Assembly (NCBI GenBank): GCA_001797815.1
Contig: MGQK01000021.1
Span: 1 to 7,806 of the forward strand
Source of the DNA: Deltaproteobacteria bacterium RBG_13_61_14
GTDB lineage: Bacteria; RBG-13-61-14
Length of the DNA stretch: 7,806 bases
Direction: 5' to 3'
The translations under genes and the position numbers were made by a program. Below are positions 4,644 through 7,806 of this stretch, one piece after another (position 1 is the first letter of the stretch; each line of letters starts with the position of its first letter). The notes under the pieces are model-generated. The model had not been told where the DNA came from. It did not search any database and saw nothing but the letters and a program-made list of their open reading frames with translations.

Positions 4644-7406
4644 ATGGCAGATACTTTGGTCATCGTGGAATCGCCGGCCAAGGCCAAGACCATTGCCAAA
4701 TACCTGGGCAAGGGTTACCAGGTCAGGGCATCGGTCGGGCACGTGGTGGACCTGCCCAAAAAGGGACTGGGCGTGGACGTGGAGCACGATTTCGCTCCCA
4801 CCTACGAGGTGATGCCGGAAAAAAAGAAAGTGGTGGCCGAGCTGAAAAAAGCCGCGGAGGGCGCTCACCATATCATCCTCGCCCCGGACCCCGACCGCGA
4901 AGGCGAGGCCATTGCCTGGCACATCGCCGACCTGCTGGCCGGCAAGGACCGGCGCATCCGGCGGATGCTGATCAACGAGATCACCAAGACCGGCGTGCAG
5001 CAGGCCCTGGCCCAGGCCGGGGAGCTCAACCGCGACTTGTTTGACGCCCAGCAGGCCCGGCGCATCCTGGACCGCCTGGTGGGCTACCAGATCAGTCCGC
5101 TCCTTTACCGCACCCTGCGCCGCCCATTGTCGGCCGGACGGGTCCAGTCGGTGGCGGTGCGCCTGGTGGTGGACCGGGAGAACGAAATCCGCGCGTTCAA
5201 GACCCGCGAATACTGGACCGTGGAAGCCGAGTTGGCCGCGTCATCGCCGCCCGACTTCAAGGCGCGGCTGATCGAGCTTGGCGGGAAAAAGGTCGAGGCC
5301 GGCCCGGTGGATGCGAAGGACCCGAAGAAGACTTTTCTGCCGGATGAGAAGAGTGCCCGGGCGGTCAAGGCCGCGGTCGAGCGCGAGCGCTGGGTGGTCA
5401 AGTCGGTGGACCAGAAGGACCGGCTGAAGAACCCGCCGGCGCCCTTTATCACCAGCAAGCTCCAACAAGAGGCGGTGCGCAAGCTGCGGATTACCGCCAA
5501 GCAGACCATGAGCCTGGCCCAGCGGCTCTATGAGGGCGTCGAGATCGGCGACGAAGGCGCGGTGGGGCTGATCACCTACATGCGCACCGACTCGACCCGG
5601 GTGAGCGCCGAGGCCCAGCAAGCCGCGCGGGGTTACATTGCCAAAACGTTCGGACCGGACTACGTGCCGGCCAAGCCCAATGTCTTTGCCAGCAAAAAGG
5701 GCGCCCAGGACGCGCACGAGGCGATTCGGCCCACGGACGTCTCCCTCACGCCCGAAAGCCTGAAGCCGTTTCTGGAGGGGGCGACCTTCAAACTCTATGA
5801 GTTGATCTACCAGCGGTTCCTGGCCAGCCAGATGAAGCCGGCGGTGCTGGTCCAGACCGCGGTGGACATCCCGGTCAAGCAATACCTGTTCCGGGCCACC
5901 GGCTCGGTGGTCAAGTTCAAGGGCTTCCTGGCCGCGTATGAGGAAGCCAAGGATGAGGACGAGGAGAAGAACGGAGAGGCGACCTTGCCGGAGGTGAAGC
6001 CCGGCCAGGAGTTGAAGCTCCTACAAATTTTGCCGGAGCAGCATTTCACCCAGCCGCCGCCGCGTTTCACCGAGGCGAGCCTGGTCAAGGAGTTGGAGGA
6101 GCGCGGGATCGGCCGGCCCTCGACCTACGCCGCGATCCTGGGCACCATCCAGGACCGCGATTACGTGACCAAGGACAAGAGCCGGCGCTTCCTTCCCACT
6201 CCGACCGGGGAAATGATCACCCAAATTTTGCTGAAGAGCTTCCCGGAGATCATGGACTTCCGGTTCACCGCCCAGATGGAGGAAGACCTGGACCGGGTCG
6301 AGGACGGGCATTTGTCGTGGCAGAAACTGTTGCACCAGTTTTACCCGCCCTTTGCCAAGCAACTGGCGCACGCGGCCGAGGTGATCAAGGAAATGCGGGC
6401 GGTGATCCCGACCGACCTGGCCTGCCCCAAGTGCAATCGCGAGCTGGTGATCAAGTGGGGCAAGAACGGCGAGTTCCTGGGCTGCTCCGGCTATCCGGAA
6501 TGCGACTATACTTCGGAATTTGTCCGGGAGGAGGGGAACGGAGTCAAGCCGGTGAACAAGACGGAAGCGACCTCGATTGTGTGCCCCGCCTGCGGCAAGC
6601 CCATGTTGGTCAAGCAGAGCAAGCGGGGGGAGTTCCTCGGCTGCTCCGGCTATCCCGAGTGCAAACAGACCATGGAGTGCCGCCGCGCCGAGGACGGCAA
6701 AATCGAGGTCATCCAGCCCGAACCCGAACACGCCACTTGCGACCTTTGCGGCAAGCCCATGGTCGTGAAAAAGGGCCGCTACGGGCCGTTCCTGGCCTGC
6801 ACCGGCTATCCGGAATGCCGCAACCTCAAGAACCTCAAAGGCGAGACCAGAAAGCAAGCCGGTGGCGGCGCCGGTTTTCAACCTGCGGAAGGCGAGCCGC
6901 CTTGCGAGAAATGCGGCAAGCCCATGGTCATCCGCCAGGGGAAATGGGGACCGTTCCTCTCCTGCTCCGGCTATCCCAAGTGTAAAAACATCCGCCGCAA
7001 GGGCAAGCCGGCGGAAGACTCGGATAAAACCGAAGTGAAAACCGGCTCCCCCCCGGCTGCAAAGAAGGCAGCCCGACCCAAAGCCGCGCCCGCCTCGGTC
7101 ACTGACGCCGAAGCCCCTTGCGAGAAATGCGGCAAGCCGATGGTCATCCGGCCGGGCAAGTGGGGCCCGTTCCTTTCCTGCTCGGGCTTTCCCAAGTGCA
7201 AGAACATCCGCAAACTGCCCAAGGAAAAACTGGCGGAGTTAGCCGCGGCCAAGCCAAATAAAAGTGGCGCAGGCTTTCAGCCTGCGGAAGGAGAGCCGCC
7301 CTGTGAGCTGTGCGGCAAGCCGATGGTGGTCCGCCAGGGCAAATGGGGACCCTTCCTGGGCTGCTCGGGTTATCCCAAGTGCAAGAATATCCGGAGGACG
7401 TCTTAA
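4644..7406 (+). CDS. topA: DNA topoisomerase I (type IA) with six zinc ribbons
   Basis: This enzyme relaxes negative supercoils by cutting one strand through a 5'-phosphotyrosine link. The 920-residue protein starts with the Toprim domain: E9 in VIVESPAKAKTI and the metal-binding DPDREGE (82-88). PLSAGRVQSVAVRLVVDRE (161-179) and the active-site GLITYMRTDSTRVS (308-321) follow, with catalytic Tyr312. EERGIGRPSTYA (485-496) completes the catalytic core. The C-terminal third is six short zinc ribbons, each CxxC-16-C-5-C, with first cysteines at 594, 647, 699, 754, 826 and 887. These bind single-stranded DNA in related enzymes. Most homologues have fewer, so the tail has expanded. Ribbons 4 and 6, with their GAGFQPAEGEPP linkers, match at 41 of 44 residues. 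The linker between ribbons 4 and 5 is Lys/Ala/Pro-rich and probably flexible. The start codon lies 2 nt after the dprA stop, suggesting coupled translation. Confidence 0.98.
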   Translation: MADTLVIVESPAKAKTIAKYLGKGYQVRASVGHVVDLPKKGLGVDVEHDFAPTYEVMPEKKKVVAELKKAAEGAHHIILAPDPDREGEAIAWHIADLLAGKDRRIRRMLINEITKTGVQQALAQAGELNRDLFDAQQARRILDRLVGYQISPLLYRTLRRPLSAGRVQSVAVRLVVDRENEIRAFKTREYWTVEAELAASSPPDFKARLIELGGKKVEAGPVDAKDPKKTFLPDEKSARAVKAAVERERWVVKSVDQKDRLKNPPAPFITSKLQQEAVRKLRITAKQTMSLAQRLYEGVEIGDEGAVGLITYMRTDSTRVSAEAQQAARGYIAKTFGPDYVPAKPNVFASKKGAQDAHEAIRPTDVSLTPESLKPFLEGATFKLYELIYQRFLASQMKPAVLVQTAVDIPVKQYLFRATGSVVKFKGFLAAYEEAKDEDEEKNGEATLPEVKPGQELKLLQILPEQHFTQPPPRFTEASLVKELEERGIGRPSTYAAILGTIQDRDYVTKDKSRRFLPTPTGEMITQILLKSFPEIMDFRFTAQMEEDLDRVEDGHLSWQKLLHQFYPPFAKQLAHAAEVIKEMRAVIPTDLACPKCNRELVIKWGKNGEFLGCSGYPECDYTSEFVREEGNGVKPVNKTEATSIVCPACGKPMLVKQSKRGEFLGCSGYPECKQTMECRRAEDGKIEVIQPEPEHATCDLCGKPMVVKKGRYGPFLACTGYPECRNLKNLKGETRKQAGGGAGFQPAEGEPPCEKCGKPMVIRQGKWGPFLSCSGYPKCKNIRRKGKPAEDSDKTEVKTGSPPAAKKAARPKAAPASVTDAEAPCEKCGKPMVIRPGKWGPFLSCSGFPKCKNIRKLPKEKLAELAAAKPNKSGAGFQPAEGEPPCELCGKPMVVRQGKWGPFLGCSGYPKCKNIRRTS
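6867..6998 (+). repeat. 132-bp intragenic direct repeat, copy A (linker plus zinc ribbon 4)
   Basis: This codes for TopA residues 742-785. It differs from copy B at only 3 of 44 residues (K/L, I/V and S/G), although the DNA has diverged at more positions, mostly third codon bases. The first 12 residues derive from a palindromic element. Confidence 0.85.
6869..6887 (+). repeat. Small palindrome in topA linker, degenerate copy
   Basis: CGCCGGTT-TTC-AACCTGCG forms a hairpin with 7 of 8 pairs around a 3-nt loop. It is read as part of GAGFQPAEG. The spacing and loop are the same as in the perfect copy at 7268-7286. Confidence 0.7.
7266..7397 (+). repeat. 132-bp intragenic direct repeat, copy B (linker plus zinc ribbon 6)
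   Basis: This codes for TopA residues 875-918 and starts with the same GAGFQPAEGEPP linker as copy A. Zinc ribbon 5, between the two copies, lacks this linker. The simplest reading is duplication of a linker-plus-ribbon unit, or independent insertion of the same element in front of two ribbons. Confidence 0.85.
7268..7286 (+). repeat. Small palindrome in topA linker, perfect copy
   Basis: CGCAGGCT-TTC-AGCCTGCG is a perfect 8-bp stem with a 3-nt loop. It is read in the same frame as the degenerate copy. A core of this kind (GCAGGCT..AGCCTGC) resembles short dispersed palindromes that I recall from GC-rich genomes of PVC-type and related bacteria; that link is from memory and was not checked. 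Confidence 0.75.
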
Positions 7407-7441: not shown

Positions 7442-7806
7442 ATGAAACCAGAAGCAGCCATCCTTCTGCTCTCCGGCGGGATGGACTCGGCCGTGGCCGC
7501 GGCCCTGGCCCGCTCCCAAGGCTTTGCCCTCTATGCCCTCTCCTTCCGCTACGGCCAGCGCCACCTCCGCGAGATCGAAGCCGCCCAGCGGGTGGCGCAG
7601 TCGCTTCAAGTTCAAAAGCACCTGATCTTGGACATCCCGCTCAAAGAGATCGGCGGCTCGGCCTTGCTTAAACCTGCGGCTGACTTTAGGGGTGCGGGTG
7701 CCCTCGGTGGTGCGGGTGCCCCCACCCGCACCCCGCCAGTCCCCAAAGACCGCTCCGAAGCCGAAATGACCAAAAGCATCCCGCCCACCTATGTCCCGGC
7801 CCGCAA
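7442..7806 (+). CDS. queC: 7-cyano-7-deazaguanine synthase QueC, 3' end cut by window edge
   Basis: QueC converts 7-carboxy-7-deazaguanine to preQ0 using ATP and ammonia, a step toward queuosine in tRNA and 7-deazaguanine in DNA. The PP-loop ATP site SGGMDSA is at residues 11-17. The family signature follows: YALSFRYGQRHLREIEAA, then IGGSALL, and, at the right edge, PPTYVPAR, the start of the conserved VPARN motif. About 121 residues are present. The zinc-binding cysteines expected near the C-terminus lie outside the window. Between IGGSALL and VPKDR the protein has an extra loop of roughly 20 residues rich in Gly, Ala, Pro and Thr, encoded by a palindromic GC-rich insert that keeps the frame. 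The gene starts 35 nt after topA on the same strand and may be co-transcribed. No convincing Shine-Dalgarno precedes the ATG. Confidence 0.93.
   Translation, partial: MKPEAAILLLSGGMDSAVAAALARSQGFALYALSFRYGQRHLREIEAAQRVAQSLQVQKHLILDIPLKEIGGSALLKPAADFRGAGALGGAGAPTRTPPVPKDRSEAEMTKSIPPTYVPAR
7691..7732 (+). repeat. In-frame palindromic and direct-repeat insert in queC
   Basis: GGTGCGGGTGCCC occurs twice (7691-7703 and 7709-7721) with an 18-bp period, that is, six codons (GAGALG then GAGAPT). The second copy continues into a perfect hairpin: GGTGCGGGTG (7709-7718), loop CCCC, CACCCGCACC (7723-7732), a 10-bp stem. It is translated as RGAGALGGAGAPTRTPP within a loop where QueC proteins normally have only a few residues. 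Confidence 0.8.

Follow-up and report, generated by a model that had tools for sequence, protein, structure and literature searches.

A REP-Like Palindrome Read in Frame in queC of a Deltaproteobacterial Genome, and the RAYT Genes Accompanying Its Family

Results

An in-frame insert in queC

The window analyzed here, a stretch of 7,806 nucleotides from Deltaproteobacteria bacterium RBG_13_61_14, carries part of a 16S rRNA gene in minus-strand orientation (1-1374), the only hit of an Rfam search of the window, and ends in the 5' part of queC (Table 1). In a profile search, the queC open reading frame (ORF) matched TIGR00364 over residues 6 to 81 with an E value of 8.9e-20. A scaffold gap (7807-7819) breaks queC at its 3' side, and a QueC-like C-terminal piece with a CxxC motif lies beyond it. 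Because the gap cuts the frame, the full QueC protein cannot be read.

An earlier note on this DNA had described about 20 extra residues, added without a frameshift between the GGSALL and VPKDR segments, at a site where QueC is usually compact. Indeed, the ORF keeps the same frame on both sides of a palindromic insert of 19 codons, whose edges were drawn from the QueC alignment and are uncertain by a few bases. The spacing from GGSAL to VPK/VPT is 24 residues in the window versus 5 in the QueC proteins of two genomes of the same order (G001 and G002) and of three other bacteria (G037, G006, and G007), the G037 protein having GHSAL in place of GGSAL. The 19-residue loop is rich in Gly, Ala, Pro, and Thr. 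AlphaFold modeling of the 121-amino-acid QueC fragment alone gave a low-confidence model (mean pLDDT of 57).

Table 1. Positions of the features discussed, in the window or, where a contig (C) is given, elsewhere in the genome
Feature	Position	Strand	Basis or remark
queC (7-cyano-7-deazaguanine synthase), 5' part	7442..7804	+	ORF; TIGR00364; PDB QueC 2pg3, 3bl5
Inserted stretch, 57 bp = 19 codons, peptide DFRGAGALGGAGAPTRTPP	7682..7738 (edges approximate)	+	Homologue comparison, codon positions
13-bp direct repeat, copy 1, GGTGCGGGTGCCC	7691..7703	+	Measured
13-bp direct repeat, copy 2, GGTGCGGGTGCCC	7709..7721	+	Period 18
Truncated REP unit	7689..7705	+	Direct reading; fits consensus of 59 genomic copies
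Complete REP	7707..7730	+	Head GTGG 7707-7710; loop CCCC 7719-7722
RAYT-A	C130:43673-44161		Palindromes on both sides, TGCGGGTG/CACCCGCA stem type as in queC
RAYT-A partial copy, 90% identical	C71:66568		Palindromes adjoin
RAYT-B	C130:61889-62491		Palindromes adjoin
RAYT-C	C63:15754		GCGGCTG/GCGCCTG stems flank, unlike queC stem type

The insert contains a hairpin exactly where the earlier note had placed a perfect 10-bp one: GGTGCGGGTG (7709-7718) is the exact reverse complement of CACCCGCACC (7723-7732), and a CCCC loop lies between them. The 13-bp direct repeat with an 18-bp period reported in the same note is likewise present. Two units can be read here. The truncated one consists of a GGGG head (7689-7692), a T, the left stem GCGGGTG (7694-7700), a CCCT loop, and a C, without a right arm. 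The complete one has the stem TGCGGGTG (7711-7718)/CACCCGCA (7723-7730), which pairing of 7709-7710 with 7731-7732 lengthens to 10 bp. The 42-nt unit folded better than 200 of 200 dinucleotide shuffles (z = -3.88).

The queC palindrome belongs to a genome-wide repeat family

A 71-nt query from queC gave 54 matches in its own genome, the best other copy being 87% identical over 54 bp (E = 2e-12). The core pattern GCGGGTGN{2,6}CACCCGC occurs 63 times in the genome, both between and within genes, while the reversed control pattern does not occur. The same core was found 0 times in the same-order genomes G001 and G002, whose QueC proteins are also without the loop. This supports the proposal of the earlier note that an intergenic-type mobile palindromic repeat had landed in queC, and it excludes a unit unique to this site coding for a loop conserved in relatives. 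A strict 24-base consensus scanned over 84,980 species, a set from which records of the genome itself may be absent, was found in a single contig, from an Acidobacteria MAG. In a survey of 1.4 Mb of contigs picked because they hold copies, GCGGGTG was by far the commonest hairpin stem, with 46 copies, of which 45 have a 4-nt loop, versus 18 for the next stem. Overall, 1.76 of 4.74 Mb was sampled, with a bias to copy-bearing contigs.

Alignment of 59 oriented copies defined a conserved unit of about 24 bp, made of a mostly unpaired head, an 8-bp stem, and a 4-nt loop; conservation drops off beyond it. The head is GGGG in 28 copies and GTGG in 19, the closing pair is C-G in 36 and T-A in 17, and the loop variants are CCCT, CCCC, and ACCC. 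The other seven stem pairs are invariant because the search pattern itself demanded them. The closing pair varies with the head type (Fisher P = 8e-6), and we therefore distinguish two subtypes; the sequence TGACTTTA upstream accompanies the GGGG subtype. With 63 cores and this unit length, the family agrees with the description of repetitive extragenic palindromes (REPs) as short repeated palindromes of 20 to 40 bp. The head reported for REPs is GT(A/G)G (PMC2817692). The GTGG subtype, including the copy in the window, fits this pattern, and the GGGG subtype is off by one base. For one RAYT, cleavage has been shown to be redirected when the head is altered to GTGG (PMC8266576).

Rarer sister stems were found by a search requiring perfect pairing, namely, the perfect palindromes GCGGCTG/CAGCCGC, GCGGATG/CATCCGC, and GCGCCTG/CAGGCGC. 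A longer, GCGGGTGCCCGTTCGGCTGAGCTCACGGCCGA-like palindrome, perhaps a composite of the same head and another hairpin, lies at C76:20474, C82:1948, and C71:3633. The window itself holds a second, rarer palindrome, GCAGGCTTTCAGCCTGC, in topA, together with a degenerate copy (7269-7285 and 6870-6886); both are in frame within the linkers that join zinc ribbons and give GAGFQPAEGEPP twice. By exact pattern, this GCAGGCTTTCAGCCTGC family occupies 9 places genome-wide and, at C71:27184, codes for GAGFQPA within an unrelated gene.

Copies inside other genes

Genes were predicted over the 1.76 Mb, on contigs chosen for holding copies, with a simple home-made codon-usage finder. By this prediction, 18 of the 59 sampled cores (about 30%) lie at least 30 bp inside genes versus 84% coding sequence, far below random placement. 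Many intergenic copies are within 20 bp of a predicted gene 3' end, in agreement with the mainly extragenic location of REPs near gene 3' ends.

The intragenic copies are read in frame, as are Rickettsia palindromic elements (RPEs) in protein genes. Besides queC, the hosts include alaS, kdtA, grpE, an Eco57I-like modification gene, a glycoside hydrolase gene, and genes for membrane proteins; these names were read by eye from the sequence, with database comparison for alaS and kdtA only. Aligned with 9jc7, alanyl-tRNA synthetase has about 21 additional residues that span the peptide encoded by the REP, and conserved AlaRS sequence stands on both sides. KdtA has an alignment gap to 2xci at the REP site that is less clean than in alaS. 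The palindrome DNA is translated in more than one frame, giving DFRGAGA(LTR)-like and LGARVPSPA-like peptides. Several palindrome-derived peptides per gene were seen at C132:42368-44434, C32:32630-33946, and C12:21944-23230 (by eye, a putative O-antigen ligase, a glycosyltransferase, and a TPR-like protein).

RAYT genes adjoin matching palindromes

The genome has 19 Y1 transposase genes (PF01797). Palindromes adjoin three genes for REP-associated tyrosine transposases (RAYTs) and a partial copy of one of them (Table 1), and the remaining Y1 loci had none within roughly 1.5 kb. RAYT-A (91.8 bits) and RAYT-C (86.5 bits) both exceed the curated cutoff of 80 bits of NF047646 (REP-associated tyrosine transposase). 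Furthermore, RAYT-A matches TnpA_REP 4er8 and retains both its HUH motif (PDHVHM) and the tyrosine region YYD. The palindromes are thus linked to RAYT genes subtype by subtype, as for REPs. RAYT-A is likely the cognate of the queC REP, since the same stem type flanks it. A RAYT gene of G002 (C487) is flanked by palindromes of different sequence with GTAG-like heads, as would be the case if REPs were lineage-specific.

Compared with RAYT-A, a paralog without an internal insert, RAYT-B and RAYT-C have extra residues right after HVH(M/L)LLTPQ. RAYT-B has three SEPDFRGAGAP-type units in a row here, in frame, after the HUH motif, and RAYT-C has a pair of palindromes with its own types of stem. At the RAYT-B locus (L174, 1395-2191; C130:61841-62635), the C terminus reads through another palindrome, and three more units with a 43-bp period lie just upstream. 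At the RAYT-C locus (L201, 1465-2148; C63:15719-16400), GCGGCTG/GCGCCTG palindromes both flank the gene and sit inside it.

Discussion

We conclude that the insert in queC is very probably a REP of a lineage-specific family, present as a truncated unit and a complete GTGG unit, probably nonautonomous, spread by RAYTs of the same genome, and tolerated as an in-frame loop. By analogy with other RAYTs (PMC8266576), a RAYT of the HUH type would mobilize the REP through cleavage and a single-stranded hairpin intermediate. The REP would have entered queC between two conserved segments, GGSAL and VPKDR, possibly in a permissive surface loop as the earlier note proposed, and would be tolerated there as a Gly/Ala/Pro/Thr-rich loop, since it adds a net length divisible by three and is read in one of its open frames. 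Selection would then spare the copies that keep the reading frame. Presumably, QueC continues to function.

One could argue that the loop is ordinary Gly/Ala/Pro-rich QueC coding sequence, palindromic by chance. The open frame and codons acceptable for a genome of 61.5% GC would fit, but the same DNA lies between genes and, in more than one frame, inside others (DFRGAGA, LGARVPSPA), and the QueC proteins of relatives are without the loop. The 63 genomic copies already refute this reading, and we reject it as practically impossible. It is also very unlikely that the insert was kept for a role in RNA, its hairpin slowing translation, stabilizing the message, or ending transcription, with the extra residues as a by-product. 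The stability of the fold and the copies close to gene 3' ends, as for REPs elsewhere (PMC3733652), speak for such a role. However, the copies are scattered over unrelated genes at unrelated intragenic positions, and their scarcity in coding sequence agrees better with insertions being selected against than with recruitment. The terminator version was set aside, as direct reading of the sequence found no T run 3' of the queC hairpin.

Somewhat less improbable, though still unlikely, is a spread of the palindrome through recombination, gene conversion, or slippage among copies already present instead of through RAYTs. Units do form partial tandem arrays, with a period of 18 bp in queC and of 36 to 43 bp at C130:62120-62635, and the CGTC class of REPs is described as having no linked transposase (PMC3733652). 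Against this stand the single copies dispersed over dozens of contigs with unrelated flanks and the REP subtypes tied to their own RAYTs. Transposition driven by RAYTs therefore remains our preferred explanation.

The in-frame palindromes in RAYT genes are the least expected part of these data, and the portions of the published accounts of intragenic REPs drawn on here make no mention of them. Conceivably, the RAYT gene is itself a substrate: its cognate palindrome would enter in frame at a fixed internal position just past the HUH motif, giving a product with a REP-coded loop. Repeated use of this site could then mean that it serves as a feedback or homing device and is no accident, with the copies in queC, alaS, and other frames as a by-product; we hold this to be improbable. 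The three RAYTs and their respective palindrome subtypes offer a natural set for studying the joint evolution of RAYTs and REPs and for learning which loops of proteins accept added sequence. More generally, REPs here enlarge conserved and even essential proteins (alanyl-tRNA synthetase and GrpE) in a poorly sampled bacterial lineage, alongside the transposases that probably move them.

The family resembles the Pseudomonas REPs and REPtron with RAYT (TnpA_REP) and a GTGG head described by Nunvar et al. in 2010 (PMC2817692). It shares with them a short palindrome with an unpaired G-rich 4-nt head, a perfect stem, and a short loop, as well as a moderate copy number and RAYT genes that have palindromes of their own type on either side. 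However, unlike in the Pseudomonas description, GGGG is the commoner head here, and many copies are intragenic and in frame, including those in two RAYT genes. REPs in coding regions, with clusters adding tens of residues and tRNA synthetase cases, have been reported (PMC3733652), and the queC case therefore adds to a known phenomenon. Those GTAG and CGTC REPs (Opitutus terrae, Rickettsia conorii, Thauera, and Xanthomonas) are similarly read in frame in unrelated proteins, as single, dimeric, or clustered units adding 20 to 30 residues or more, with tRNA synthetase and RNA modification genes among their hosts. They differ in sequence family and host; queC is not among the genes named in the part of that account used here, where REPs overlap only the ends of RAYT genes, whereas in our genome copies lie within the RAYT frame. 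Finally, the earlier note had likened the insert to RPEs. The likeness concerns the mode of insertion: a palindrome sits in frame within protein genes and contributes an extra loop. REP/RAYT systems are the better comparison: given the REP anatomy and the adjoining RAYTs, a likely mobilizer linked to the palindrome can be named here, unlike in the comparison with RPEs.
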